Virus record (IMG/VR): IMGVR_UViG_3300048686_000814
Coordinates: 1-54,084 of that record
DNA: 54,084 nt
Direction: 5' to 3' (one strand)
Origin: a virus
Numbering within the stretch: the stretch's first letter is position 1; every line of letters starts with the position of its first letter. Below, piece after piece: positions 1 through 43,504 of this stretch. A program made the position numbers and the translations under genes. Under the pieces are notes generated by a model. The model ran no database searches and had not been told where the DNA came from. It worked only from the letters and a program-made list of their open reading frames with translations.

Positions 1-2683
1 CAAGGTACCCAGGGGTTACAAGGTACTCAGGGGGTTACAGGGACTTAGTATACAAGGTACTCAGGGGTTACAAGGTATACAAGGACAACAAGGTATACAA
101 GGTTTTGGTTATGAACAAAACCAAGGTATACAAGGTACCCAGGGGTTACAAGGTACCCAGGGGTTACAAGGTATACAAGGACAACAAGGTATACAAGGTT
201 TTGGTTATGAACAAAACCAAGGTATACAAGGTACACAAGGGTTACAAGGTACACAAGGTGTACAAGGTATACAAGGACAACAAGGTATACAAGGTTTTGG
301 TTATGAACAAAATCAAGGTATTCAGGGTACTCAAGGTATACAAGGACAACAAGGTATACAAGGTTTTGGTTATGAACAAAACCAAGGTATTCAGGGCACT
401 CAAGGGCTAAGGGGTATCCAAGGCACTACTGGTAGTCAAGGTAATCAAGGTGTACAAGGTGTACAAGGCCGAGAAGGTATTCAAGGCATAGGAGGTATAC
501 AAGGAACATCTAGCGGATATAGTCAAGATTGGTTGTTTGATACTAATACAAATTTAGGTACTACAGCTAATAAGGTTAGATTAAGTACTAGTTGGGCTAG
601 CGGTGCTGTATTTAAGTTATATATAAATAATTATAATGCTGATGGTAATTTAACTACAAATTGGTTAAATTCACTTTCAACATTTGGTACAGATAATAGT
701 TATTATGGTACTATTTCTATATTTACAATTGGTGACTCTACTAGGCGACTAATAGGAAAAGTTACTAGTATTATTAATAATACTACATATTACACACTTA
801 ATTGTGAGCCTGTTGAGACAGATGGCATATCACCGGTATTAAATCAACGAGTAACACTTTCATTTGCGCCTGCAGGTCAACGTGGTATACAGGGTGTACA
901 AGGCGTACAAGGTCATCAAGGTGTACAAGGTCGTCAAGGCATACAAGGTCCACAGAGTACACAAGGCATACAAGGTGAGCGCGGAGAAATAGGGCCAGGC
1001 TTTAGAATTACTATAGTTTACACAACTGTAGCCGACCTATTAGCAGATTTATATCCAGCAAATACTGAACCAGGAAATTTTGCATTAATTAATACAAATC
1101 CACCAACTGATCCTGATAATAATAAGGTTTATTTATGGACAGGGCATCCAGGTAGTGGAGGTAGTGGCTGGGTTTATCAAATAGATTTAGACGGTAGTCA
1201 TGCTGTACAAGGTATACGCGGTCCACAAGGTACTACCGGACAAGGTATACAAGGTATACAAGGTCAACAAGGCACACAAGGTGATATAGGATTACAAGGC
1301 ATAGATGGACAGTATGCTGGACAGGGTATACAAGGTCAGCAAGGCACACAAGGTAACATAGGATTACAAGGTATACAAGGTCCACAGAGTACACAAGGTA
1401 TACAGGGACAGCAAGGCACACAAGGTAACATAGGATTACAAGGCATACAAGGTCCACAGAGTATACAAGGCATACAGGGCTTACAAGGTTTTGGTTATCA
1501 ACAAAATCAAGGTATACAAGGTCCAGCTGGTTCTTATGGAAGTGGTGGATACCAGTACTATAATTTTACAGGTAATGGGACTCAAACACAATTTGTAATT
1601 ACTGGCGCTAATAATTTAACTAGTTTAAATATATTAGTATTAGAAAACGGTATTTTGCAACGTCCAGATATAGACTATACAGTTATTGCACCAAATGTAC
1701 TAAATTTTGTTATTGCTCCTCCTGTAAACATGAACATTCAAGTACGTGTGTTAGCAGGCGGGCTGCAGGGTATTCAAGGTTTTGGTTATCAACAAAATCA
1801 AGGTATACAAGGCGCTCAGGGTTTAGCTGGGCAATACGCTGGACAAGGTGACATAGGATTACAGGGTATACAAGGTTTTGGGTACGAACAAAATCAAGGT
1901 GTGCAAGGTATACAAGGTCATCAAGGTGTGCAAGGTGTGCAAGGTCATCAAGGTGTGCAAGGTGTGCAAGGTGTGCAAGGTCTACAAGGACTTTCAGTAG
2001 CTTGGCAGAATAATTGGAGTAACTATACTATATCATTTTTGCCGAATGATTATTTATTAAATGATATAGTATTTTATAGAGGTGCTAGCTATATATGTAT
2101 AACTCCACATACTAGTACAAATGATTTAACAGCCACTGGTTATCCCGATCAATCTGCTAATTGGAATTTAGTAGTTAGTCAAGGTGTACAAGGTATACAG
2201 GGTCAGCAAGGTACACAAGGATTTGATGGTATACAAGGTGCTCAAGGTTTAGTAGGAATACAAGGATACGGTTGGGCACAACAACGTGGTATTCAAGGTA
2301 CGCAAGGTGTTCAGGGTCGAGATGGTCAGTTTGTTGCTCAAGGCATACAAGGTCCAACAGGTAGAGCTGGTGGAGATGTTATAAAAACCTATAACATATT
2401 AAATGATTTTACAGCACCAATTACAGGATCACAAATTTTTGTACCAGCATCTAATACTAGCATAACAAAATTACAGATTACTAATGGGGAGCCAGCAAAA
2501 GTAGATATTACATTAGGTTTATATAAAAACAACAATTTATTAACATATATTACCCTATCTTCAGGTTTAATATCATATATGTTAACTGGTTTAAATTTTA
2601 GTATAAGTATTAACGATTATATAACGGTAAACGTAATAGCTGGTTATGGAAAAAATATGTCTCTTACATTGTTAAATACTTAA
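1..2683 (+). CDS. Collagen-like tail fibre protein (5' end outside window)
   Basis: Long open frame (codons in phase with nt 2) running in from the left edge with no stop until 2683; a TTG at 533 is only an internal codon. It is built of Gly-X-Gln triplets (GIQG, GVQG, GTQG) typical of phage collagen-like fibres that trimerise, interrupted by FGYEQNQ/FGYQQNQ spacers and by non-repetitive domains at about nt 527-880, 990-1200, 1530-1770, 1995-2180 and 2370-2683. The 1995-2180 domain is Trp/Tyr-rich with an [11 protein letters not shown] stretch, resembling chitin/cellulose-binding CBM5/12 modules, so receptor or glycan binding is likely. In the first ~30 nt the G-X-Q register is in frame 1; a five-G run at 30-34 (four G in sister repeats) shifts it. 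It precedes another large virion-like gene with a 29-nt gap. Confidence 0.85.
50..410 (+). repeat. Near-identical tandem repeats inside the collagen-like fibre gene
   Basis: Roughly 70-96 nt units, each coding a few G-X-Q triplets followed by GFGYEQNQ, are repeated with very few base changes; FGYEQNQ codons begin near 107, 203, 299 and 368. The DNA-level identity, including codon choice, implies recent duplication, and unit number could change by slippage or recombination. Shorter diverged copies recur near 1490, 1790 and 1880. Confidence 0.85.
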
Positions 2684-2712
2684 TTAATAAATACTTTTTT
2701 TGGAGAATTTTA

Positions 2713-5700
2713 ATGGCAGTAACTATAACTGAAACTGGTAGAAATAGTGCCACCGTAACATACGGTGGCATTGCAACAGGTGCAGACATATGGGATACAT
2801 TTAGAGCTGTTGATAAATGGATTAGAAACGATACTTTAAGCGGTACAGTAACAGCATCAGCATCAACAGTTACAGGTACTAATACTGTATTTCTTAAGCA
2901 GTTAACTGCTGGCGATCAAATAATGATTGGAAGTCAGGTTAGAACTGTTGCTACTGTACCGAATGATACCACATTTACAGTAACTTCAGCATTTAGTCCA
3001 GCAATAACACTACCTTCATCAGTTCACTATATACGAGGTAGTTTAACAGGTACTTCTGCTGCTACTACAGTTAGAGGCACTACTAATGGGACTGTAGCAA
3101 CTACTGCAGGAAGTACTACAGTAACCGGTACAGGTACGTGGTTTATGAGTTGCGCAACTAATTCTATAGTACCAATTCTTTTATCAGGTACAGTAGAAGT
3201 ATCGTCAACAACGGATACTCCTGCTAATACAATTACAGGTATAGGTACAAGTTTTGCTACAGGAGATCACACAAGTTCAACTAGACTACAACCTGGAGAT
3301 TGTATTACAGTAGTATCTAATGGTCGTAGCTTTTATTTTGAAGTAGACCAAGTCAGTAGTGATTTGAGTGTTACGGTAGTGTCTGGCCCAACAACTGCAA
3401 TAGCAGCAGGTGCTCAAATATATAAAGCTACTAATGGTGCTACAGGAAGAACTATCAGTATTAATGGGCAAATACGACAGATAACAGCTTTAACTAGCAA
3501 CACTTCTCTAACTGTTAATGCGCCATTTGATTTTACCGACTCCGGCATGCGTATGAAAACATATCCACGAGGAACAGTTGCTAATGCTGTAGCCGGAACA
3601 AGAATTCAATCTACTGGTTGTAGTAGCAGCGGCACGGTATTAACAGTTGCAGCAACACTTACTGGTTTAGTAACTGTAGGATCTGCTCTACAAGTTACAG
3701 CAGGTACAGGTGCACTAGCTACCGGCGTGGCAACTACTATACTTAATCAAATAACGGGTGGTAGCGGAGCATCTGTTACTAGTGCTAGTTGTAGCGGTAG
3801 CTCCGGTACTAATACTATTACTCTTGGCGCCACTAATAGTTCTATTAGAGTTGGGCAATTATTATCTGGTAATGGTGCAACTATAGCTGGTATAGAGCCA
3901 GACACATATGTAACAACTATTAGTGGAACAACTGTTACGTTAAGTAAAAATTTAAGTGGCACTTTAAGTGGCACAACAGTTCACTTTTATAATCCAGGTG
4001 GATTAGGTACATATACATTAAGTGCAACACCAGGAACACCATTAAGTGCAGCTACAGTAACATTTAGCACTATTCAAGGTACTAATGCTAATTTTGCTTG
4101 GGATCTTGCTGATGGTGATCAAGTATGGATTGGTGATGAGCTGAGAACTTTTAAGTTTTCCACTAGTGGTACAGGAATAACATCTACAACAACAGGTGGT
4201 GCAGTAGATATAGGATATACTTTAGATTATGCTACTTATACCGGTACTACACCTATACACACTATGCGACAGCTATATCAAGGAGTACTATTACGCCCTG
4301 AAGAAAGTTATATTAATGGTACAGGAACAGCATTTTTAACAGAACTACGTGTTGGTGACGAATTAAATATAGAAGGTACAGATGTTATAGTAAGCCAAAT
4401 TTTAAGTAATACTAGATGTAGAATAACTACAGATTTTAGTCATACTCTTGGTACTAGTAGCACTATATATAAAAAATTAAAAATACACGGCAATGTACTT
4501 GAAGGTAATAGAGATGGTGGAACTACACCAGGCAATAAATTTAGCCAAGCAACTACAATATTAGCAACCACAAATAGCGTTTATTTAGCAGGTACAAATC
4601 AAATTACTGTAGCAAGTGCTACAAACTTTAATCAATATAATTTAATTAAAATACATGGTGCAGGCGGAGCACCAGTAGTATTAAGCGGAACTATCAATAA
4701 TGTAACCGCAAGCACAACTGTTACAGGTACAGGAACCTTATTTACTACTCAATTATTTATAGGTGCTGAAGTTTCTATAGCTGGGCAATATTTTGTAGTT
4801 ACAGCTATTGCTAGTGATACTTCAATGACAGTTAATTCGGCTATGACTGTAGTTGGACCAACTCCAATATATCGAACAATACCTCACTATTCGGCTATTG
4901 CATCAGCATCAGGAGTAGCCGCTGTTACACTAGCACAGCCTATTCAACATACAGTGTATGCTACTGCTGCTAATCCTTGTATTGTTTATACGCCTAATAC
5001 AGGAGCTGATTTTATTGAATATGTATATTCTTCACCTAATAAAAGTGCTGAAGCAAGTACAGCATTACTTAATACTAGTTTAGACAGAAAGTATTTTGGA
5101 TTTAGATTTTATCCGCTAATGCAAAATGCAACGACTTATAGCACAGGAAATGTTATAAGTGGATATACTCCAACTGCAACTGCAACTATTTCAACAGCTT
5201 TAAGTGGTTGGAACACTCCTGTATATGAGCGTTGGGCAGCTGGTTATGCTGGCACTGGTGGTGTAGGTATTAATTTAGCAGATTGTTCTGGTGGTACTGT
5301 TATGATTGGTTCACAGCCAACTACAACAACCTTTACACTAAGTAATTTAATTTGCGGCAGTGTTGCTGTACCAGCTACAACTACACAGTATTCTCCATTT
5401 GCAGCAGGTGTTGCAGATAACGTAGTTACAGCTATATCAGGCGGAACAGTAAATGCATCTGCTTCTACATATACAATGACTTTAAGCCCTACTATTGCTG
5501 CAAATTCAGTTGTAATAGGCGGCATAAGCACAGTTTTTGATACACAAATAGGTACACAAACTAGTGGTGGATCACTATATTTATTTGGCAATTCTAGATA
5601 TTTTTGCTTGCAAGGCAAAAGCCTAGCTAATGTGCCTACAAATTGGATAGGTTGTTTTGAATTTGAGCGCGCTCAACCAGAAGATTTAGGAACAGGAATA

Positions 5701-6549
5701 GTAGGTACTACTGGAGTTACTATAAGTTCATTTAATTTAGCTGGTGGTGTAGCAGCAGGTAGCACATTTTTAACAGAACCGGCAAAAAATCAAGGTATGG
5801 GTGCTTCAGCAGTTCTTTATGCTTCAGGTGCAACACCATATCCGTGCTATGGCTATATAAACGGTCAACGAATGCCTGTAGGAGCTTCACAATATCCTAG
5901 CTTACCTGGACCTGGAAATGCTCCGGTACATGGAAATGTAATATCTGTGCCTCGTGTACGATCATCACCTACAGATCTAGTTGGTGTTAATGCGCATATA
6001 TATAGTGCACTTACTATTACTTTAGGTAGATGGGGTCACATGTATGATTTATCAGCTACTGGAGCATATATTAGTCCTGGAACTATTGCTTCAAATGGTT
6101 TACCTGTTCAAACCACTACAGCACCTGCTACAGCAACTGTTGATAGTATACCACAACCACATTTAGGTCAAATAGTACCAGTAAATACTAATCTATATGG
6201 TGGAAAACGTTTTATGTTTAGTCCTATAGTAGTTCTTGGTAATGCAGTTGATCCTGATATACGTGGTAGAATATACGGATTAAAAATAGTATCTAGTAAT
6301 TTAGGAACACTAATGGATACTGTTTCAATTAATATTGATAGTAATCAATTTTATGATGCTGGTGGTACTACTACAGATCATTGGTTATTAACAGCAGCTG
6401 CGCGTACGTTTAGATATACTCTTCGTAGTAGAACAGATACTACTGATCCTAGACAAAGTTATAGAAGCTTGGAAGATACTGCCGCACAAACTGCAAATAC
6501 AATTGCAACTGCTTTTGCTAATAATTTTAGAGTAGCATTGGCAGTATAA
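2713..6549 (+). CDS. Large repeat-built virion protein, probable tail fibre or tail-associated protein
   Basis: 1278 aa, Thr/Ser/Gly/Ala-rich and almost free of charged residues. It starts at an ATG with GGAG ten bases upstream. A beta-type module recurs: V-x-GTGT-x-F, then L-x-x-GD-x-I-x-I-x-G, then V-x-x-I-x-SDT-x-x-TV; copies begin near residues 50, 138, 170, 535 and 695. Such GTGTxF modules are familiar from phage tail and fibre proteins. The C-terminal ~300 residues are not repetitive and include IRGRIYGLKIV. It lies directly after the collagen-like fibre and is followed at once by the 6551 gene, so a shared distal tail structure is likely. The exact role and any host-receptor specificity are not visible. 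Confidence 0.7.
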   Translation: MAVTITETGRNSATVTYGGIATGADIWDTFRAVDKWIRNDTLSGTVTASASTVTGTNTVFLKQLTAGDQIMIGSQVRTVATVPNDTTFTVTSAFSPAITLPSSVHYIRGSLTGTSAATTVRGTTNGTVATTAGSTTVTGTGTWFMSCATNSIVPILLSGTVEVSSTTDTPANTITGIGTSFATGDHTSSTRLQPGDCITVVSNGRSFYFEVDQVSSDLSVTVVSGPTTAIAAGAQIYKATNGATGRTISINGQIRQITALTSNTSLTVNAPFDFTDSGMRMKTYPRGTVANAVAGTRIQSTGCSSSGTVLTVAATLTGLVTVGSALQVTAGTGALATGVATTILNQITGGSGASVTSASCSGSSGTNTITLGATNSSIRVGQLLSGNGATIAGIEPDTYVTTISGTTVTLSKNLSGTLSGTTVHFYNPGGLGTYTLSATPGTPLSAATVTFSTIQGTNANFAWDLADGDQVWIGDELRTFKFSTSGTGITSTTTGGAVDIGYTLDYATYTGTTPIHTMRQLYQGVLLRPEESYINGTGTAFLTELRVGDELNIEGTDVIVSQILSNTRCRITTDFSHTLGTSSTIYKKLKIHGNVLEGNRDGGTTPGNKFSQATTILATTNSVYLAGTNQITVASATNFNQYNLIKIHGAGGAPVVLSGTINNVTASTTVTGTGTLFTTQLFIGAEVSIAGQYFVVTAIASDTSMTVNSAMTVVGPTPIYRTIPHYSAIASASGVAAVTLAQPIQHTVYATAANPCIVYTPNTGADFIEYVYSSPNKSAEASTALLNTSLDRKYFGFRFYPLMQNATTYSTGNVISGYTPTATATISTALSGWNTPVYERWAAGYAGTGGVGINLADCSGGTVMIGSQPTTTTFTLSNLICGSVAVPATTTQYSPFAAGVADNVVTAISGGTVNASASTYTMTLSPTIAANSVVIGGISTVFDTQIGTQTSGGSLYLFGNSRYFCLQGKSLANVPTNWIGCFEFERAQPEDLGTGIVGTTGVTISSFNLAGGVAAGSTFLTEPAKNQGMGASAVLYASGATPYPCYGYINGQRMPVGASQYPSLPGPGNAPVHGNVISVPRVRSSPTDLVGVNAHIYSALTITLGRWGHMYDLSATGAYISPGTIASNGLPVQTTTAPATATVDSIPQPHLGQIVPVNTNLYGGKRFMFSPIVVLGNAVDPDIRGRIYGLKIVSSNLGTLMDTVSINIDSNQFYDAGGTTTDHWLLTAAARTFRYTLRSRTDTTDPRQSYRSLEDTAAQTANTIATAFANNFRVALAV

Positions 6550-6950: not shown

Positions 6951-7175
6951 ATGGAAACCTTATATAATGAACTAAACAATGTATTTCCAAATCAGTGGTG
7001 GTTTTATGAAGTGCAAGGTTTAAATTACTATGAAGCTTCTGATCGATGTGTTAGATTAACAGCTAATCCCTCACACGTAGTAAACTATTATGGAAAATTA
7101 ATTTTTGCCTCTGTAGATAAAATACCTAGTGATGATATACCTTGGTTAGTATTAATTGGCGGTCCCGCTAATTAA
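6951..7175 (+). CDS. Hypothetical protein, 74 aa
   Basis: 74 aa, aromatic-rich (NQWWFYEVQGLNYYEA), starting 8 nt after the previous stop. No recognised domain. It sits between the tail genes and the lysis cassette; its own stop is 5 nt before the spanin-type gene's ATG at 7180. Confidence 0.55.
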   Translation: METLYNELNNVFPNQWWFYEVQGLNYYEASDRCVRLTANPSHVVNYYGKLIFASVDKIPSDDIPWLVLIGGPAN

Positions 7176-7179
7176 TACT

Positions 7180-7731
7180 ATGTTTATATTAAATTTTATA
7201 CCGGATTGGTTCTTTCCACTATTAGCTGTAGCTTGTATAATTTTGTTTTTTGCTACTAGATTTTTTGCACAATTAATTCCGCAAGCAAAATTAATACACT
7301 ATAGTATGATTCCACTATTTGCACTCTCACTATTTTTAATGGGTGCAAATTGGAATAATAATTATTGGCAAGAAAAGTTAACTGAAGAGACTGCCAAAGC
7401 AGAAGCTGCAGCCAAGCAGCAAGAAGTAGTAAATCAGCAGTTAAAACAAGAACGAGAAGCTAAACTGCAACAACTTAAAGACAGTGCAGAGCGTGAACGT
7501 CAGCAAAATAAACGGTTTATTGAGGTACTTAAATCAAAGGACGCTACAGTGCAAAATGTGTTAGCCACGCTTAGTAAAGCTGAACAGGATAAATATGCTG
7601 CACTAGGCGAAAAAGATAAACTGGCAGCTAATAAAAAACTGGAGGATGTGTTAGCTAACGCCAAAAACTGCCCAACTGTGCCTGAATTGTACCTAGAAAA
7701 ACTTAATAATACTGCTAAGGGTGCAAAATAA
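7180..7731 (+). CDS. Inner-membrane coiled-coil protein, i-spanin-like
   Basis: 183 aa from the ATG at 7180; an upstream in-frame TTG at 7156 would overlap the previous gene and is less likely. Two hydrophobic segments (about residues 8-28 and 37-55) are followed by a long Glu/Gln/Lys/Ala-rich coiled coil (about 62-150), the layout expected of a membrane-anchored periplasmic protein such as an Rz-type i-spanin. Its stop overlaps the start of a lipoprotein gene (TAATG), and the endolysin follows, which supports a role in disrupting the Gram-negative envelope at lysis. Two membrane segments instead of one is unusual for a spanin, so a holin/spanin-like variant is possible. Confidence 0.65.
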   Translation: MFILNFIPDWFFPLLAVACIILFFATRFFAQLIPQAKLIHYSMIPLFALSLFLMGANWNNNYWQEKLTEETAKAEAAAKQQEVVNQQLKQEREAKLQQLKDSAERERQQNKRFIEVLKSKDATVQNVLATLSKAEQDKYAALGEKDKLAANKKLEDVLANAKNCPTVPELYLEKLNNTAKGAK

Positions 7732-7994
7732 TGAAATTAGTAATATTAGCACTAGCTAGCACACTATTAGCTGGCTGCTTCCAAACATTTAAGGTTAATC
7801 CACCCTGGCCACAAATAGCAGATTCAGCAATGCTTAAACAATGCGATCAACTAAAGTTGGCTAATACGCAGGATGTAAGCATGGCAGAGCTTGTAGATTT
7901 AATACAGCAAAACTACAATTTATACCATATGTGTAAGTTAAATAATGATAGTTGGGTACGGTGGTATAATACCCACTGGAAAAAGGAGAAGTAA
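7731..7994 (+). CDS. Outer-membrane lipoprotein, o-spanin (Rz1)-like
   Basis: 87 aa with a lipoprotein signal: short basic start, hydrophobic stretch, and lipobox LLAGC (Cys16). The mature part is about 70 aa. It overlaps the upstream i-spanin-like gene by one base and the endolysin gene by one base. A lipoprotein between an i-spanin-like protein and an endolysin fits an Rz1-type o-spanin that joins the inner and outer membranes during lysis. The overlap is end-to-start rather than nested as in lambda. Confidence 0.65.
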   Translation: MKLVILALASTLLAGCFQTFKVNPPWPQIADSAMLKQCDQLKLANTQDVSMAELVDLIQQNYNLYHMCKLNNDSWVRWYNTHWKKEK

Positions 7995-8608
7995 TGGAAC
8001 TAACACAAGATCAATTAAAACAAATAATTCCAAAGAACCAATATGTTAGTTACTGGTATACTGCTCTACAGCAATTATTACCACAATATGAAATAAATAC
8101 TGCAGACCGCATAGCTGCCTTTTTAGCACAGTGTGCACACGAGTCGGGCGGTTTTGTGTTTATTAAAGAAAACTTAAACTATCGCTGGCAAAGTCTGCGT
8201 AAAACATTTCCCAAGTATTTTCCTACAGATGCATTGGCGCAGCAATATGAGAAAAAGCCTGAAAAGATTGCTAACCGTGTATATGCTAATCGCATGGGTA
8301 ATGGTCCTGAAGAGTCAGGAGACGGATATAAATTTTGTGGACGTGGATTGATACAAGTAACTGGCAGAGAAAACTATAGTTGGTTTGCTGCAAGCTTACA
8401 GATTAGTCCTGAAGAAGCTAGTGAATATATGGAAACCTTTGAAGGTGCTGCACAAAGTGCATGTTGGTTTTGGGAATCAAATAATCTCAATCAGTGGGCG
8501 GATAAACAAGATATACTTACCCTTACAAAACGCATAAATGGCGGAACAATTGGCTTAGAAGATAGGAAAAAACACTACGAGCATTGCCTACATATACTAA
8601 GTCACTAA
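7994..8608 (+). CDS. Endolysin, GH19 chitinase-like lysozyme domain
   Basis: 204 aa. The motifs are those of glycoside hydrolase family 19 phage lysins: AAFLAQCAHESGGF with Glu50 as likely general acid, then NLNYRW, and CGRGLIQVTGRENY. It would cut the glycan strands of peptidoglycan. There is no signal peptide or SAR segment, so release through a holin is expected; several small membrane proteins downstream are candidates. It has an AAGGAG ribosome site and is coupled to the o-spanin-like gene. Confidence 0.85.
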   Translation: MELTQDQLKQIIPKNQYVSYWYTALQQLLPQYEINTADRIAAFLAQCAHESGGFVFIKENLNYRWQSLRKTFPKYFPTDALAQQYEKKPEKIANRVYANRMGNGPEESGDGYKFCGRGLIQVTGRENYSWFAASLQISPEEASEYMETFEGAAQSACWFWESNNLNQWADKQDILTLTKRINGGTIGLEDRKKHYEHCLHILSH

Positions 8609-8628: not shown

Positions 8629-10092
8629 ATGAGAAAAGTATTAGCCTTTATTACAGCTTTATTATTTGGCTTAGTAGGTCCAAGCCTTGCTCAACAAACT
8701 CTTATCAACCAAGCTCCTTATACAAGTACGAGTTTAGTTGATACTAATAGTACTAGTAATAGTACAAGTAATGTTACTACCAACAATACCACTACTTCAA
8801 CCACTAATAATACTAATACAAACATTCAGAGTGGTACAGTAACTAATAACAATGTTATGAGCGGTAGTGTAACTTATACTAATAATAATGTGCAAAGCGG
8901 TACATTAACTAATATTAATCAAAATACCAATACTAATACAAACACTAGCACTAATACCAACAACAATATACAAAGTGGTACTGTAACTAATAATAATGTT
9001 ATGAGCGGTAGTGTAACTTATACTAATAATAATGTGCAAAGCGGTACACTAACTAACATCAATCAAAACACTAACGCTACTACAAGTGATAACACGAATA
9101 GAACTATAATGAGTGGTAGTTTAACTAATACCAACATCAATACCAACAACAACATCAACTCTGGTGATCAAACAATTCGCAATGTACAGAGTGGTACAGT
9201 AACCTATAATAATAACAATGTAAATAGTTCTACATCAACTAGTGATAATACCAATCGCAATATCATGTCAGGCACTGTGACTTATAATAACAACAATGTT
9301 ACAACTAGCAACAATGTCAACCAAAACATTAATTCTGGTACAATGACGTATAACAATAATAATATTAACACTAGTAACAGTACTAACACTAATACAAATA
9401 ATAATATTAATACTGGTGACATGACCAACCGCAACATCAATACATCTACCAGCACTGCGGTCAATACCAATCAAAACAATAATGTCAATACCAGCACCAG
9501 TACCAGTAGAAATGTCAACACTAATAACAATATTAATACTGGTGATCAAACTGTGCGTACTGTACAAAGCGGAGGCACAGACAATAAAAATACCAATGTC
9601 AATACTAACGAAAACAAGAGTACTAGTACTAATACCAATAATAATGTACAAACAGGAGACATGACCAACCGTAATATCAACGACACTAGAATAACACAGA
9701 CCATACGTCAACCGCCCCCAACAGCAGTAGCACCAGCCATGATGAGCATGGGTCAAGATCTTTGTGTGACCGGTGTGAGTGGTGCAGCACAAACACAGGT
9801 GCTTGGTATTAGTTTTGGTGCAACACAGCGTGATTTCAACTGCGAAAGATTGCGTCTAAGCAAAACACTATATGACATGGGTATGAAAGTCGCTGCTGTA
9901 GCCACTATGTGTCAGGATCGTAGAATATGGGACGCCATGATGGCTGCAGGTACACCATGCCCAATAGAAGGCAAAATTGGTGATCAGGCACGTGAAGCGT
10001 GGAAAAAAAATCCACACTTAATTCCTGATCCTGTAGAAAAACTAGCTGTAGTTGATGACAATTACGAAGATCGCGTAAGGTATCGCAGGTAA
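8629..10092 (+). CDS. Secreted Asn/Thr-rich repeat protein with conserved C-terminal domain
   Basis: 487 aa. A cleavable Sec signal (about residues 1-21, ending SLAQ) leads into about 330 residues made almost only of Asn, Thr and Ser, with repeated units such as NNNIQSGTVTNNNV, MSGSVTYTNNNVQSG and NTGDMTNRNIN. Periodic N/S/T/Q/G strands of this kind are reminiscent of curli-like or beta-solenoid proteins. The last ~130 residues are a different, Cys-containing globular domain (Cys at LCVTG, FNCERL, TMCQD and TPCPIE; DRRIWDAM). It starts 21 nt after the endolysin and overlaps the next secreted protein by one base. A virion surface fibre or an envelope or extracellular amyloid-like protein are both possible; I do not know this family. 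Confidence 0.7.
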   Translation: MRKVLAFITALLFGLVGPSLAQQTLINQAPYTSTSLVDTNSTSNSTSNVTTNNTTTSTTNNTNTNIQSGTVTNNNVMSGSVTYTNNNVQSGTLTNINQNTNTNTNTSTNTNNNIQSGTVTNNNVMSGSVTYTNNNVQSGTLTNINQNTNATTSDNTNRTIMSGSLTNTNINTNNNINSGDQTIRNVQSGTVTYNNNNVNSSTSTSDNTNRNIMSGTVTYNNNNVTTSNNVNQNINSGTMTYNNNNINTSNSTNTNTNNNINTGDMTNRNINTSTSTAVNTNQNNNVNTSTSTSRNVNTNNNINTGDQTVRTVQSGGTDNKNTNVNTNENKSTSTNTNNNVQTGDMTNRNINDTRITQTIRQPPPTAVAPAMMSMGQDLCVTGVSGAAQTQVLGISFGATQRDFNCERLRLSKTLYDMGMKVAAVATMCQDRRIWDAMMAAGTPCPIEGKIGDQAREAWKKNPHLIPDPVEKLAVVDDNYEDRVRYRR

Positions 10093-11849
10093 TGTATACT
10101 ATTGCTAAATCTATAATCTTTAGTTTATTATATTTATATACATCATTAGTTTATAGCCAAACCAGTTATACTGGTAATTTAGTTGATAATAATTGGAGTA
10201 ATGGATATCCTGTGTCTACACTAACATGCTGGCAAGCAGGTGATCCTAATTGTAGTCCGGGAACACCATATATAAGACCTGATGGTAACATAAATTTTAG
10301 TTATAATGCGACAGAATTGTATCAAGCACGAGCAATAGCAGATGTGCTACCAAATTCAGGTACAGGCTTAATTGCTACAGGATTCCAATTTAATTGGCGT
10401 AGTAAAAACGGAAATGGTTGGGACAATGGTGCTTTAGATACTCTGCAGGCCTATGTTCAAATGTACAGCAAGGGTGGCCAATGGATAGAAGCACAAACTT
10501 ATAACCTAAATTTTATACACGATTGGACTGACTTTTCATGGTCAGGAAACTTTACCAAGGAGCGCAGAGGCAGTGATCTAGGCACTATACTCTACGGTTT
10601 CTATGGTAGAGACAACAATTATTGGGTAGGACCATATGGGCCAGAGATTACTAATGTAAGTTTTAGCTTACGCTATCAACCTGATCCTTGTGTAGTAAAT
10701 CCACTACATAGTACAGAATGTCCTGGATTTTTAACAGCAATTAATAAACCCATACCTGGCCTAGCAGAAGCCAGTGCTAGTTATAGCCTAACAACTACCC
10801 AATCAAGTTCAATAATACCATCACCTAGCGTCAGTACTGCTATGAGTGTGATTAAATTAAACGCTCAACGCGACTTGGCCGCGGCAGAAACTGCTATTGA
10901 ACAAAATACTAACACAGAAAAAACAAGCAACCAAACCGCTTTGGCTATTGCTATGCCTACACAAAACTTGGCAACATCTGCTACTAAGTCTACGAATCGC
11001 GGCCAAGACACACAAACAATAGGACAAGAACAAGAACAATCATCGGGTTTACCAACAACCGCAGCAGTCTCAGTCAGCGTACCAATCCAATTACCACAAA
11101 TGTCAAGACCGGTGCAAAGAGCAGACTCTCAAACAAGGTCAGACTCTGCGGTAGAGATTGTATCATTAGATCAATTGCTGGCACCACCACAGATAAATCA
11201 ACAGTTGGTTACAACCACAGCAGTATCATTGCCTCCCACACCCGCTCGCACCAGTTCTACTAGCCAAACACAAGATATTGATACCAGTGCCGCAGTACAA
11301 GTAGCCATAATTAGAATGCCAGAACCAACGCAGGTTCAAATAGATCAAAGTCAGTCAACATTGCCAGAGCGTCCCATACAAGAGAATAGTACTATTGCTA
11401 TGCCCGCAGTAATACAACCTGCAATGGCCGCAGCAGTTGTGCCAGAACCACCGCAGGCTGAATCCCCTAGACCACCGCAAGTGGAAACTGCCACAGTAGA
11501 TGCACCCACTAATATCATCGCTACAGCCCTAATAGATCGTACCAATCCACTTAATGACATGTTAAACGGGCAACAGCAGATGACACAATCTGGTCCGGTA
11601 TTTGCGGGTCCAGCAGTCAAATCAAACACAGCAGACAATGACTTGGCAGGCGGAGTCAGTATCAGTCAAATTGCTCGTGTGCCAGCAGGATTTGATGTCT
11701 ACACAAATTTAGCTATAAGAGAAATAGCCTTTTATCAACCAAAGGAAATCTATCGTGGTCAACGCACTGTAGACAATGTTCGAGCCTTGCGTAGCCTAGG
11801 ACAAGACGCAAAACACCAAGAAATAATAGACCAACAATATAGGAGGTAA
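10092..11849 (+). CDS. Secreted protein with globular N-terminal domain and low-complexity tail
   Basis: 585 aa. The signal peptide is about residues 1-23 (ending VYSQ). Residues ~24-215 form a Trp/Tyr-rich, probably beta-sandwich domain (TGFQFNWRSKNGNGWDNG, FIHDWTDFSWSG, TNVSFSLRY) that could bind glycans. Residues ~215-520 are Pro/Gln/Ser/Ala/Thr-rich with little predicted fold, and the last ~60 are again ordered (DVYTNLAIREIAFYQPKE). It overlaps the preceding secreted repeat gene by 1 nt, so the two are likely made together and may act as partners. No family is recognised. Confidence 0.65.
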   Translation: MYTIAKSIIFSLLYLYTSLVYSQTSYTGNLVDNNWSNGYPVSTLTCWQAGDPNCSPGTPYIRPDGNINFSYNATELYQARAIADVLPNSGTGLIATGFQFNWRSKNGNGWDNGALDTLQAYVQMYSKGGQWIEAQTYNLNFIHDWTDFSWSGNFTKERRGSDLGTILYGFYGRDNNYWVGPYGPEITNVSFSLRYQPDPCVVNPLHSTECPGFLTAINKPIPGLAEASASYSLTTTQSSSIIPSPSVSTAMSVIKLNAQRDLAAAETAIEQNTNTEKTSNQTALAIAMPTQNLATSATKSTNRGQDTQTIGQEQEQSSGLPTTAAVSVSVPIQLPQMSRPVQRADSQTRSDSAVEIVSLDQLLAPPQINQQLVTTTAVSLPPTPARTSSTSQTQDIDTSAAVQVAIIRMPEPTQVQIDQSQSTLPERPIQENSTIAMPAVIQPAMAAAVVPEPPQAESPRPPQVETATVDAPTNIIATALIDRTNPLNDMLNGQQQMTQSGPVFAGPAVKSNTADNDLAGGVSISQIARVPAGFDVYTNLAIREIAFYQPKEIYRGQRTVDNVRALRSLGQDAKHQEIIDQQYRR

Positions 11850-12610: not shown

Positions 12611-13138
12611 ATGACAGAAAAAACAGAAATCAAACCATTAACACGTAGCGAAAAAGAAGCTAAAATTAAGGATAAGGCAGGGTTTGTTATTGTGTTTCTT
12701 GCCGCATTATTAGCCATTAATACAATGATCGGTGGAAGTAATAGTAGCAAAATACAAAATAATACTATACAGGCTAACAACATGTGGGCTTGGTATCAAG
12801 CAAAAAATGTACGTGGTGTACTATATGAGATTAATGCCCTAGAAACTAATAAGCCGGAAAATAAGGATAAATTTCTTGCCGAAGCTAAACGTATGAGCGA
12901 TGATAAGAAAGATATTATGGAAAAGGCTAAGCTATTAGAAGCTGAACGCGATGAAGCTAAAAAACGCAGTCCCTGGTTTACTTGGGGCGGTAGCATATTA
13001 CAAATTAGTATTGTACTGTTAACGGCAAGTATTTTAGCAGCTAGTATGCCAATGTTTTACGTAAGCACTGTTGTTGGACTTGCCGGAGCATTTATAGTAA
13101 GTCAAGCACTATGGATGTGGTTGCCGTGGTTAGGGTAG
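12611..13138 (+). CDS. DUF4337-like membrane protein
   Basis: 175 aa. An N-terminal membrane segment (VIVFLAALLAINTMIG) is followed by NNMWAWYQAKNVRGVLYE, an acidic/basic helix, and two or three C-terminal hydrophobic segments. The helix, NMWAWYQAK motif and C-terminal pair match my memory of the DUF4337 family of uncharacterised bacterial inner-membrane proteins, seen also in phages. It is preceded by an AGAGGCAG ribosome site. The last 28 nt overlap the following lipoprotein gene. Confidence 0.65.
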   Translation: MTEKTEIKPLTRSEKEAKIKDKAGFVIVFLAALLAINTMIGGSNSSKIQNNTIQANNMWAWYQAKNVRGVLYEINALETNKPENKDKFLAEAKRMSDDKKDIMEKAKLLEAERDEAKKRSPWFTWGGSILQISIVLLTASILAASMPMFYVSTVVGLAGAFIVSQALWMWLPWLG

Positions 13139-13347
13139 TATTATTATCGCTGCTATTAGCTAGTTGTAGTGATATGTATAGGTACCCCTGTCAAAATCCA
13201 GATAATTGGGAGCATAAGGTATGTAAAAAACCTTATTGCAGTGCTAACGGCACTTGCCCAGAAGATTTAACTCCATATGAAAAAGATCGTGTAACTAGTA
13301 AAACAACTACTACACCAGCACAAGCAGCAGTAAAGGATTGTAAATGA
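13111..13347 (+). CDS. Small cysteine-rich lipoprotein
   Basis: 78 aa. A hydrophobic N-terminus ends in the lipobox LLASC (Cys19), followed by a mature part with paired cysteines (YPCQNPDNWEHKVCKKPYC, NGTCPEDL) and a Thr-rich tail. The start overlaps the upstream gene; in-frame GTG codons just downstream are alternative starts. The PxNWExxxCKKPxC pattern recurs in phage lipoproteins of unknown role. It could be a second envelope-linking or superinfection-exclusion lipoprotein. Confidence 0.6.
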   Translation: MDVVAVVRVVLLSLLLASCSDMYRYPCQNPDNWEHKVCKKPYCSANGTCPEDLTPYEKDRVTSKTTTTPAQAAVKDCK

Positions 13348-13796
13348 TTAAAGATTTTTTCGTAGGGCCACGCTATACTGAAGAAGAGTTAATGGCTAGG
13401 CTCAAATTTTTTATAGGTATGGTACTAGCACTAACATTATTTGGTATCGTATTTGTAGTTCTTTACAGTTTAATATTCGTAACACAACCAATGAACGGTA
13501 TTAGTCCTGTAGATAATAAGTTTTTTGAATTAATTATTCCTATTGCTACATTTTTAACAGGTACACTTAGTGGTATTATGTTAGCCAGTGGTGACAAGGA
13601 AGCCCAAAAAGCAGCCCTACAAGCTGCAAACAAAGGTTGGGATAAGCCACCAGGCCCACCACCTATGTCTCCTGCTACAGTTACCCTAGGTAATAATGGC
13701 AGTATAAACATAGCACCATCATCTGGTGGTAATCAAGTAACTGTTGGGTTTGGCGGTAAAGCCGCCCCACCTCAACCAGTATTTCCAGAACTATAA
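13344..13796 (+). CDS. Two-pass membrane protein with disordered C-terminus
   Basis: 150 aa. Hydrophobic segments lie at about 22-47 and 63-85, separated by a short loop (VTQPMNGISPVDNKFFE). The tail is Gly/Pro/Asn-rich. The start overlaps the preceding lipoprotein stop (ATGA). The two-segment topology and the place downstream of the lysis genes make it one candidate for a holin, though the long polar tail is atypical. Confidence 0.6.
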   Translation: MIKDFFVGPRYTEEELMARLKFFIGMVLALTLFGIVFVVLYSLIFVTQPMNGISPVDNKFFELIIPIATFLTGTLSGIMLASGDKEAQKAALQAANKGWDKPPGPPPMSPATVTLGNNGSINIAPSSGGNQVTVGFGGKAAPPQPVFPEL

Positions 13797-14120: not shown

Positions 14121-14804
14121 ATGGCCAAAAGCAGTGCTAAAAAATTACGCAGTGTACAACGAGATAATGTTGTTCCCCTGGAAATAGGTTTTGAAAATGT
14201 AAAACCACTTAATTATATTCAAGAAGAATATTTAAAGGCTATACATGAAAATAGTATAATTTTTGGTATAGGTAGTGCAGGCACTGGTAAAACCTATATT
14301 GCAGCAACATATGCGGCTGGTGAGTTATTTCACCGCCGTATAAAAAAGATTATACTAACTAGACCAAATATAGAAACAGGCCGAGGATTAGGATTTTTGC
14401 CTGGTACTCTAGAAGAAAAGTATGCTCCCTATCTTGAACCTTTTGACCAAATTTTTTCAAATAGTTTAGGACGCGGATTTTACGAATATGCACTAAATAA
14501 AAAACAAATAGAACCTAAACCGCTGGGATTTATGCGTGGACTAACATTTGATGATTGTATAGTTTTACTTGACGAAGCACAAAATGCAACTAGAGATGAA
14601 ATGAAAATGATCTTGTCACGCATAGGTAAAAACTGTAAAATAATAATTAGCGGAGATCACGATCAAAGTGATATTAGTAACAGTGGGCTATTAGATGCTA
14701 CAAATAGATTAGAGCATATAGAAGGTATCGAAGTTGTTAGATTTCGTGACGAAGATATTGTACGTAGCAAATTATGTAAACAAATAATTTTAGCATATAA
14801 ATAG
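14121..14804 (+). CDS. phoH: PhoH-like ATPase
   Basis: 227 aa, the length of the minimal PhoH domain. The Walker A loop is GSAGTGKTY (about residues 51-59). ILTRPNIETGRGLGFLPGT is a PhoH hallmark, Walker B is VLLDEAQN, and sensor-like IISGDHDQSDI follows. PhoH proteins are P-loop NTPases of the helicase fold, common in phages of aquatic bacteria and linked to phosphate stress or RNA metabolism; the role in infection is unsettled. It has its own ribosome site (AAGGAAAC) and is followed 11 nt later by a small membrane protein and the cyclase. Confidence 0.9.
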   Translation: MAKSSAKKLRSVQRDNVVPLEIGFENVKPLNYIQEEYLKAIHENSIIFGIGSAGTGKTYIAATYAAGELFHRRIKKIILTRPNIETGRGLGFLPGTLEEKYAPYLEPFDQIFSNSLGRGFYEYALNKKQIEPKPLGFMRGLTFDDCIVLLDEAQNATRDEMKMILSRIGKNCKIIISGDHDQSDISNSGLLDATNRLEHIEGIEVVRFRDEDIVRSKLCKQIILAYK

Positions 14805-14815
14805 GAGCACTAGCT

Positions 14816-15004
14816 ATGGAAACTGTTACAGACGCTGTAGGTAAACTTTGGTTTTTAGGTGCTGGAATAGTTGCCATAGCTGCCTACGCTGTTACTATTA
14901 AAGTAAGATTAGACTACTTAGAAAAAAACTATGATCGTCAAATTACTGCACTTTGGGATCAGGTTAATAAATTAGTAAAAGACGTAAGAAACAATGGAAA
15001 CTAA
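14816..15004 (+). CDS. Small membrane protein upstream of the cyclase
   Basis: 62 aa. One membrane segment (about residues 12-28, LWFLGAGIVAIAAYAV) is followed by a charged amphipathic helix (RLDYLEKNYDRQITALWDQV). The ribosome site is GGAGCAC. The last 11 nt overlap the cyclase start, so the two are co-translated; it might anchor or regulate the soluble cyclase (inference). Confidence 0.6.
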   Translation: METVTDAVGKLWFLGAGIVAIAAYAVTIKVRLDYLEKNYDRQITALWDQVNKLVKDVRNNGN

Positions 15005-16217
15005 ATTAGCTACTATTATATGCAGCGATGTTATAGGCTATAGTTCGTTAATGCAAAAAGACGAACAAGGTACACTAGCTAAGTTAGATGTTTGCAGAGC
15101 CATAATTGATAAGCTAATTTTAGAATACAGAGGAAGATTGTTTAATACAGGCGGAGATAGTGTACTTATTGAATTTGCTAGTGCAGTAGATGCCGTTCGG
15201 TTTGGCGTTGCAATGCAGACACAAATGCATAAGTTGAATAATGGACTACGTTGGCGTGTAGGCATGCATGTAGGTGAAGTATGGATATATGGCACTAACC
15301 TAATGGGCGATGCCGTTAACTTAGCGGCTCGTACAGAAAGTCTAGCTGATCTTGGTGGTGTTACTATGACTGATAGCGTGTATAGACTAGTTAATGCAAA
15401 AATAAAAGACCTTAAATTTACTAGTCGTGGCCAGCAAGCGTTTAAAAATGTAGAGCCTATGGAGATCTGGAGTGTAGGTATACCAGGTAGTGAACCTAAT
15501 CCGCACTTAAATAAGCAAACAGTTAAGCCAACTAAAACTAAAAGTCATACCGAATTAGTAAATGCTATATTAAACGATCAAGCTGCTCGCAATCGTACAT
15601 TAAACGATGCAATTGCGTTTAAACACGATCAAAAGTATAACGCAGCAACAAGAATATTAATGTGGAGAAGTATTAAAAATGATCCGCAGGCAGTAGATGA
15701 ACTAATAAATATGCTGCAAAAGAAAATTGTTCCCGATGACCTACAACCTTATGTTTATGCCGTATTTAGAGAAATATATACAAAATTAACTAGTGAAACA
15801 GCATTAAAAATTGTTGAATTAGTAAAAGACACAAGTCATAGCTTAGCTATGCAAGTATTACGACATGCTGCTAGGGTTAATGAACAAGCAAATCAACAAT
15901 TAGCGAATATGGTATTTAATGATCCACACAGTAGTCAGTCAGATATTGAAAACTTACTTGGCGATTTAAAAGAGTCGGCGTCAAAACGTAATATTAGTAG
16001 TATGCTTAATTTGGGTAAATACTATTTACAAATACAAGATAAAAAAAGTGCTTTTCGCTGGCTGTACGCTGCTAGAGCAGAGCGAAATACAGAAGCCCAA
16101 AATTTATTAGAGCAATTAATAAAAACGATAAGTAAAAGTGATTTCAATAATTTCAAAACTGATGCAGATGCACTGGTAGACGAAATTAAATTTATAGATG
16201 ATAATCGCATGAGATAA
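14994..16217 (+). CDS. Class III nucleotidyl cyclase with helical-repeat C-terminus
   Basis: 407 aa. Residues 1-160 are a complete class III cyclase domain: metal-binding Asp12 in IICSDVIGYS and Asp55 in FNTGGDSVLIEF, and transition-state Asn109 and Arg113 in MGDAVNLAARTES. The two usual purine-selecting positions, Lys and Asp in adenylyl cyclases, appear to be Asn51 and Asn102, so the base used (A, G, C or U) cannot be read from sequence. Residues ~180-400 are helical, ending in a Sel1/TPR-like repeat (KYYLQIQDKKSAFRWLYAARAE). No membrane segment or receiver domain is present. It overlaps the upstream small membrane protein. The product would be a cyclic nucleotide made in the infected cell. 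Confidence 0.88.
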   Translation: METKLATIICSDVIGYSSLMQKDEQGTLAKLDVCRAIIDKLILEYRGRLFNTGGDSVLIEFASAVDAVRFGVAMQTQMHKLNNGLRWRVGMHVGEVWIYGTNLMGDAVNLAARTESLADLGGVTMTDSVYRLVNAKIKDLKFTSRGQQAFKNVEPMEIWSVGIPGSEPNPHLNKQTVKPTKTKSHTELVNAILNDQAARNRTLNDAIAFKHDQKYNAATRILMWRSIKNDPQAVDELINMLQKKIVPDDLQPYVYAVFREIYTKLTSETALKIVELVKDTSHSLAMQVLRHAARVNEQANQQLANMVFNDPHSSQSDIENLLGDLKESASKRNISSMLNLGKYYLQIQDKKSAFRWLYAARAERNTEAQNLLEQLIKTISKSDFNNFKTDADALVDEIKFIDDNRMR

Positions 16218-42740: not shown

Positions 42741-42894
42741 AATCGCTCATTACAACAAGACTAACGCCAGTATGACTGGCTAGCTCTTCAACTAGAGCTG
42801 CAATTTTATGTAGGAGATCAACGTGATCATAGTGATCATCTCCATCACACTCAAAACTAACACTCATGCCCGCATGTTTAAACTCTAGTTCCAT
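42688..42894 (-). CDS. Small acidic protein, 68 aa
   Basis: 68 aa with an extremely acidic C-terminus (TETNTDEDEDKWAD) and DGDDHYDHVDLLHKIAALVEEL. The ribosome site AGAGGAA is just behind the tmRNA coding piece. The DNA-mimic-like charge could suit an inhibitor of a host DNA-binding protein, which is speculative. Confidence 0.6.
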   Translation of the reverse strand: MELEFKHAGMSVSFECDGDDHYDHVDLLHKIAALVEELASHTGVSLVVMSDYADTETNTDEDEDKWAD

Positions 42895-42911
42895 AAATTC
42901 CTCTGTTTGTG

Positions 42912-43240
42912 TTGTTGGTGGCGGTTGTTGGCTAATAAGGTCAACCGCCTAAACCCCAGCCTAGCTTATGCAGCTAAGGCAAATACCTCATCGTTGGCAT
43001 TTATCTTATTTGCTTCTTTTACGGAGATCGCCTACCGAGTTGTCCACCGCAATACTCTTTACCCCGTCGAAACCGTGACTGGCCCATCAAAAGCACAATA
43101 CTAGCATATAAGCTAAATGGATCGATCCTTCCAACCACTGTCGATCACCCGTTGGGTAGGGTATTATGCTTTTGGTGGACCAGAGGGGAGTCGAACCCCT
43201 GTCCGCAGTACGTTTCTATTAGCTTCATACAACTATATTA
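42912..43240 (-). ncRNA. ssrA: Circularly permuted (two-piece) tmRNA gene
   Basis: Order on the - strand is acceptor piece (about 43240-43173), spacer (43172-43086), coding piece (43085 to about 42912). The acceptor piece ends with T arm AGGGG-TTCGACT-CCCCT, CTGGTCC, discriminator A and CCA at 43173. The coding piece begins GGGCCAG, which pairs with CTGGTCC over 7 bp with a G3-U70 wobble (alanine identity), followed by TTTCGACGGGG of the tmRNA D-loop. A plausible PK1 (GCGG/CCGT and GAGT/ACTC) precedes the tag frame; the stop codon lies in a bulged stem (GCCT-AGCT/AGCT-AGGC), and an 8-bp stem GGCGGTTG/CAACCGCC closes the 3' side. Exact outer ends need mapping. Confidence 0.93.
42966..43013 (-). 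other. tmRNA tag reading frame
   Basis: From a GCA resume codon the frame reads A-N-K-I-N-A-N-D-E-V-F-A-L-A-A-stop. The last ten residues match the usual ANDExFALAA protease tag; five extra residues (ANKIN) come before them. A later GCC at 42998 could instead be the resume codon, giving the ten-residue ANDEVFALAA tag. Confidence 0.85.
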
Positions 43241-43504
43241 CTACATCTTTCCAATTCTATCCTTAGCACGTTGTCGTTGTTCGCGCTCTTTTATTACTCC
43301 ATATTTATTTTCTAGCTCATCAATAATATTTTTCATATGTAAGTAGTGTTTATATATATTACCTATTTTGTTTTCAATATAAAAAGTTATACCAAAAGCT
43401 AATAATAGTATACATATAAAATTAATTCCCACTAATGCCGCTAAAATAATAAATTGTTCTTGTAAAGCATCGAATTGAATTATTAGTTTATCAATTATTT
43501 GCAT
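43241..43504 (-). CDS. Membrane-anchored helical protein, 87 aa
   Basis: 87 aa. One membrane segment (about 18-42, FIILAALVGINFICILLLAF) then a charged helix. Its stop is at the likely 5' end of the tmRNA acceptor piece, so both may be on one transcript. Unknown function. Confidence 0.6.
   Translation of the reverse strand: MQIIDKLIIQFDALQEQFIILAALVGINFICILLLAFGITFYIENKIGNIYKHYLHMKNIIDELENKYGVIKEREQRQRAKDRIGKM

Follow-up and report, generated by a model that had tools for sequence, protein, structure and literature searches.

A conserved three-gene set in aquatic phages encoding exported and membrane proteins that may act on the host envelope around cell release

Hundreds of aquatic phages carry a tightly conserved and unstudied set of three genes, P1, P2 and P3, whose products probably target the envelope of the host cell as it dies, and probably form neither curli nor an ordinary virion fibre. 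We analysed a 54,084-nucleotide virus contig (IMGVR_UViG_3300048686_000814, in its entirety; hereafter the window), which also carries tail-fibre, PolA-type polymerase, helicase, ribonucleotide reductase and SbcC-like genes. An initial annotation had described two large genes overlapping by 1 nt and sitting right after the endolysin. Both are real: P1 (8629-10092, +) encodes 487 aa and P2 (10092-11849, +) 585 aa, their junction reads TAATG, and the endolysin ends at 8608, 20 nt 5' of P1. The two do form a unit, but a third gene had been missed, P3 (11948-12601, +), which encodes a one-TM coiled-coil protein with a C-terminal NPL motif (...LDNPLANK). We regard it as plausible, though still somewhat short of probable, that the three proteins assemble late in infection into an exported envelope complex that binds glycans and acts around cell release. 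The published literature that we searched holds nothing on the function of the module.

With the P1 domain as query, tblastn recovered 11 of 50,697 GenBank phage records (six Pelagibacter phages, two Roseobacter phages, two Caudoviricetes from Manatee Spring and one uncultured Mediterranean phage), and in the 10 records examined the genes that come next nearly always encode a P2-like protein that is secreted and a coiled-coil protein that has one TM segment and ends in NPL. A scan of IMG/VR confirmed at least 598 P1-domain relatives (of at least 600 stretches). Carriers include pelagiphages, roseophages, T4-like phages and jumbo phages, on records of ~30-364 kb, and there are matches in bacterial or archaeal MAGs as well. 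Among the IMG/VR loci, which for both the P1- and the P3-based search are the best-scoring, partly overlapping ones and not a random sample, P3 is present after P1 in 84 of the 86 with at least 3.5 kb downstream; a profile (HMM) of the P2 C-terminus is found in 69 of these 86, and the loci that lack it are mostly pelagiphage- or roseophage-type. Searching reciprocally from P3 (580 confirmed among the matches listed), we find P1 and P2 upstream, in order, in 60 of 60 loci with enough flank, a count that is conservative because the P1 HMM was built from one sequence yet matched in all of them. When P2 was used for tblastn no phage record was matched, probably because its head diverges too fast, and the usable probes are P1 and P3. 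Uncultivated aquatic phages carry the module very commonly and GenBank phages rarely, and its three proteins are without known function.

Some loci show variations on this layout. Three further secreted proteins of ~166, 124 and 131 aa, with at most weak matches to PHROGs without assigned function, lie between P2 and P3 in ~13-15 loci (L042:7810-9081, L064, L069, L058 and L115 among them), where P1 has a hydrophobic C-terminal tail; a second P3-like gene copy stands in tandem in L040, L043, L046 and L084. Common 3' neighbours of the module are a DUF4337 protein, a small Cys-rich anchored protein and a two-TM protein. The window has the DUF4337 membrane protein at 12611-13138 (+; PF14235, E=4e-31), a frequent follower of P3 seen at 26 related loci, and the two-TM membrane protein, seen at 36, at 13344-13796 (+; phrog_25359, no assigned function); the latter is a possible holin. 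Further downstream come PhoH (14121-14804, +) and an adenylate/guanylate cyclase domain protein (14994-16217, +) that is ~77% conserved in near relatives. Elsewhere in the window, a tmRNA (42875-43286, -; tag ANDEVFALAA) with eight tRNA genes around it scores with betaproteobacterial and permuted tmRNA families, a type that hints at a betaproteobacterial host.

P1 is predicted to be exported and combines an Asn/Thr repeat with a four-Cys C-terminal domain. Its signal peptide, read from the sequence, spans residues 1-21 (MRKVLAFITALLFGLVGPSLA; 8629-8691, +), with a site between ...GPSLA and QQ. The periodic Asn/Thr/Ser repeats reported in the initial annotation occupy residues 25-352 (8701-9684, +), ~328 residues of which 66% are N, T or S. 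Only even lags (2, 8, 10, 12, 14, 22, 24, 26, 36 and so on) show significant autocorrelation in this region (z up to 8.2 versus shuffles), and the same even-over-odd excess, with z of 19-44, appears in all 40 long P1 homologues listed (56 tested), so that the periodicity is not a matter of chance and changes in length go in two-residue steps. Such two-residue alternation would fit beta strands with alternating faces; slippage of a six-base repeat could also contribute, and 6-, 12- and 36-base tandem units are indeed present in the repeat DNA. AlphaFold2 (AF2) places strands here at low confidence (block pLDDT mostly 35-64), and residues 85-291 of this low-confidence model give a weak match to a beta-helix (9h78_B, Z 7.2, rmsd 4.3). 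As regards the solenoid that had been proposed, the alternation is strong and the repeats look beta-structured; with low model confidence and a weak match, a regular coiled beta fold may or may not be present.

The Cys-containing terminal domain, likewise noted previously, comprises a Cys-flanked beta-hairpin and helices (residues 366-470; 9724-10038, +; pLDDT 65-96), and its four Cys (379, 405, 428 and 444) are invariant across aligned relatives. It matches phrog_20531 (PHROGs v4, E=4.8e-13) and is already known only as that PHROG, which has no assigned function. P1 has no Pfam match at E<=1; sequence and fold searches of P1 against the PDB returned nothing convincing, and the Cys domain had no PDB match.

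What, then, might the repeats be for? P1 homologues range from ~150 to 540 aa, with a hydrophobic tail at the C-terminal end in 69 of 185 (simple rule). Many are missing the long repeat, and the repeat-poor ones still keep the Cys domain, P2 and P3; to judge from these comparisons, the repeat region is dispensable. This bears on a reading close to that of the initial annotation, in which a curli-like extracellular fibre or amyloid is released with the progeny and leads to aggregation or coating. N/T-rich repeats with strict two-residue alternation in the long homologues, together with the beta-helix match, are what such a fibre might look like, and curli systems are present in some other pelagiphages (PMC9599517). 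However, across the window and 44 related records neither curlin repeats (PF07012; 0/45, E. coli control positive) nor CsgG (PF03783; 0/45, controls positive, the window being a linear and maybe incomplete record) were detected, and the module comes with no linked outer-membrane exporter. We therefore reject the curli assignment. It is improbable that the core function lies in forming a filament, since the long repeat is so often missing while the rest of the module is retained, and we consider an extracellular fibre of any such kind quite improbable.

P2 is predicted to be exported too, with a lectin-like head, a disordered linker and a conserved C-terminus. The signal peptide read from its sequence covers residues 1-22 (...YLYTSLVYS; 10092-10157, +), with a site between ...LVYS and Q. 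The beta-rich domain and the long disordered Pro/Gln tail described earlier are both recovered: the former is a confidently modelled jelly roll (residues 24-198; 10161-10685, +; AF2 block pLDDT 80-97) and the latter a Pro/Gln/Thr/Ser-rich linker (residues 213-505; 10728-11606, +; mostly pLDDT <50, with the low-pLDDT stretch of the model at about 235-512). The tail ends in a short segment conserved among relatives (...FYQPKEIYRGQRTVDNVRALRSLGQDAKHQEIIDQQYRR; 11634-11846, +; consensus DNxRALR...SDxLHxxMVxxQY), which we propose as a docking element. Although the head has no detectable sequence family in a Pfam search, it is predicted with high confidence to be a jelly roll closest to sugar-binding domains. 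The best PDB match of the model is the Fbs1 sugar-binding domain (Z 13.1, rmsd 3.1, 151 residues), with further matches to CBM16 (Z 10.5) and to phage tailspike and tail-fibre domains (Z 10-11). A carbohydrate-binding fold of the tail-fibre/tailspike class is therefore shared by the P2 head, which is not proof of function; indeed, a predicted jelly roll alone would not establish that sugar is bound.

Several P2 proteins differ from this plan. In L122 and L125-L127, P2 appears, by reading, to have two tandem heads, and at L050:8339-10015 it contains a long Cys-repeat array (CPGYxxAYxxQQC...NPLY). The Roseobacter phages CRP-810 (L008:5782-7590) and CRP-207 (L011:1834-3873) keep P1 and P3 and have an unrelated-looking protein without a lectin-like head in the P2 slot.

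The P2 head is much more variable than P1 or P3. In pairs with P3 identity of 0.8-0.9, median identity is 0.78 for the P1 domain and 0.29 for the head. Between the window and related record L121, identity is 76% for P3, 78% for the P1 domain and 55% for the P2 C-terminus, as against 24% for the head. L121 and L120 are the two closest full relatives, in which most other operon genes are 74-100% identical (exceptions in L120 are Rz, 55%, and Rz1, 37%); P2 identity to the window is 54% in L120 and 24% in L121. This pattern resembles what an interchangeable recognition head on a conserved dock might produce. One might suppose that such a head follows the tail fibres of the phage. The window encodes, at 533-6549 (+), a tail fibre with collagen repeats and a presumed fibre protein of 1278 aa that matches no family; the block upstream of the conserved lysis cassette differs in L120 and L121. 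The large fibre gene of the window has no match in either relative, although the L120 head is 75% identical to that of the window. We therefore reject tracking of the tail fibres by the head in these two relatives, as well as copying of the head from a tail fibre, there being no match to it among the other window ORFs.

When is the module expressed? Of 113 non-redundant P1 genes, 39 have in the 150 bases upstream a core motif (TATAAATA or CTAAATA) that we take, from T4-type knowledge, to be a T4-type late promoter; shuffles give a mean of 6.3 and a maximum of 14, and the reverse strand gives 6. The figure is 21 of 33 for loci with T4-like replication genes, 0 of 20 before clusters read as DNA polymerase and 0 of 17 before clusters read as UvsX (labels based on sequence reading and T4-type knowledge), and the motif is rare before P2 (1/72) and P3 (4/78). 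These counts support a single late operon in T4-like members, and the module is probably switched on late in infection. The window is not T4-like and has no such motif directly upstream of P1.

Late timing matters for the idea that the module serves superinfection exclusion, the exported lectin-like head masking the glycan receptor that the phage itself uses on the infected cell. An exported, variable, glycan-binding-like head with a conserved tail is just what this model would call for, but late promoters would switch the module on late for exclusion, and in the two close relatives compared, head and tail fibre do not vary together; we think this explanation rather unlikely.

Export itself is a widely shared feature. 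The Sec-type signal peptides claimed for both window proteins are predicted here as well, and signal-peptide-like N-termini recur in 157 of 167 P1 and 128 of 142 P2 homologues (simple rule). A lipobox is absent from P1 and P2 of the window and from every P1 homologue, and occurs in 4 of 142 P2 homologues. Could these nevertheless be virion-associated fibres or decoration proteins? Late promoters upstream of P1 would suit a structural protein, and the lectin fold is common to the P2 head and tailspike or tail-fibre domains. Against this, signal-like N-termini in nearly all homologues make an ordinary virion fibre unlikely, a membrane-protein partner (P3) nearly always adjoins P1 and P2, and in the window the two sit with lysis and membrane genes and not among the fibre genes. 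Of the alternatives, which rank from lysis accessory through superinfection exclusion and filament to virion fibre, this last is the one to which we give least credence.

The lysis genes deserve closer attention. In the window, an Rz-like i-spanin gene (7156-7731, +; phrog_312, E=6e-4) and an Rz1-like lipoprotein gene (7731-7994, +; phrog_456, E=1.6e-4), both neighbours outside the module, precede a GH19/chitinase-type endolysin (7994-8608, +; phrog_181, E=5e-76), which is followed by P1. The module is directly 3' of the endolysin in the window, in the close relatives L120 and L121 and in L019, and in Mosig and S28C10 holin-like multi-TM genes adjoin it (by reading). Among the 24 records in which an endolysin could be recognised, it lies no more than 5 kb from P1 in 10, versus ~6 expected, a proximity that is not significant (Fisher combined p=0.09). 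The description of the pair as lying behind the lysis genes hence holds for the window and its nearest relatives and does not extend clearly to the family, and we reject a purely lysis-linked module. A subtler possibility is accessory lysis, in which P3 and the exported P1 and P2 would work as a spanin-like system of non-canonical type, breaking up the outer membrane once the endolysin has acted. P3, with its TM segment and coil, has the layout of an inner-membrane spanin subunit, although its topology is ambiguous, positive charges being more often on the C-terminal flank; the late promoters and the gene neighbours just described would agree with such a role. On the other hand, Rz and Rz1 are already present in the window, P1 and P2 generally lack the lipobox of an outer-membrane spanin lipoprotein, endolysin proximity falls short of significance and a hypervariable lectin-like head is unexpected for a spanin. 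Accessory lysis thus strikes us as unlikely, albeit less so than the other alternatives.

Returning to the release-stage envelope complex that we favour, we imagine the following. P1 and P2 would exit the cytoplasm via the Sec route, while P3 would be held in the inner membrane by its one TM segment, with its coiled coil. P1 may supply a stalk of beta structure that varies in length, together with a Cys domain of the disulfide type, and P2 a variable jelly-roll head for glycan binding on a long flexible linker, whose conserved C-terminus would dock to P1 or P3. Around release the head would make contact with glycans of the host envelope (LPS or capsule), and a surface capped or loosened in this manner might let progeny leave and keep them from re-adsorbing to the dying cell or its debris. 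What the computations show is the linkage of the three genes, the predicted signal peptides and head fold, a head more variable than the tail that carries it, and the enrichment of late promoters; the complex, its docking, the binding of glycans and a role at release are inferred. A number of observations sit less easily with this model: the unrelated-looking P2 slot of CRP-207 and CRP-810 implies that the head may be non-essential, the L120 head does not track tail fibres, the window has neither T4-like character nor the late-promoter motif directly upstream of P1, and P3 topology is equivocal.

If the module does act on the envelope during release, it would represent a step, shared and overlooked, by which phages leave abundant aquatic bacteria. 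It is conceivable, though we would not bank on it, that we are dealing with a new class of machine by which phages remodel the cell surface. It would be a Sec-exported complex of three proteins, made late, whose lectin head can be interchanged on a conserved dock; podo-, myo- and jumbo phages that infect aquatic Gram-negative bacteria would have shared it by horizontal exchange, and it would control glycan contacts during release. Since the module is found in cultured pelagiphages (HTVC023P, HTVC033P, HTVC115P, HTVC202P, Mosig and Baldr), tests with real hosts are possible.

How does the module compare to known systems? The pelagiphage curli/type VIII secretion clusters also involve exported proteins of aquatic phages, and a lysis role has been suggested for phage CsgGF (PMC9004378), but the published clusters are a different gene set (PMC9599517, PMC9004378, PMC7029224); here there are three unrelated genes and neither CsgG nor a curlin repeat. 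The phrog_20531 profile matches the Cys domain of P1, whereas the three-gene module is not described by that family. Rz/Rz1 spanins resemble the module in the TM-plus-coiled-coil layout of P3 and, in the window, in its place next to the endolysin; they differ in that a separate Rz/Rz1 pair is present and P1 and P2 are not lipoproteins. The predicted P2 head has its jelly-roll fold in common with the Fbs1 sugar-binding domain, CBM16 and phage tailspike and tail-fibre domains, but is exported, borne on a disordered linker and not known on the virion. Finally, Llp of phage T5 is a small single lipoprotein that blocks the receptor. It shares with our proposal the idea of a phage protein that prevents progeny from re-adsorbing at the surface, and it differs from the present module, which has three proteins and a lectin-like head.
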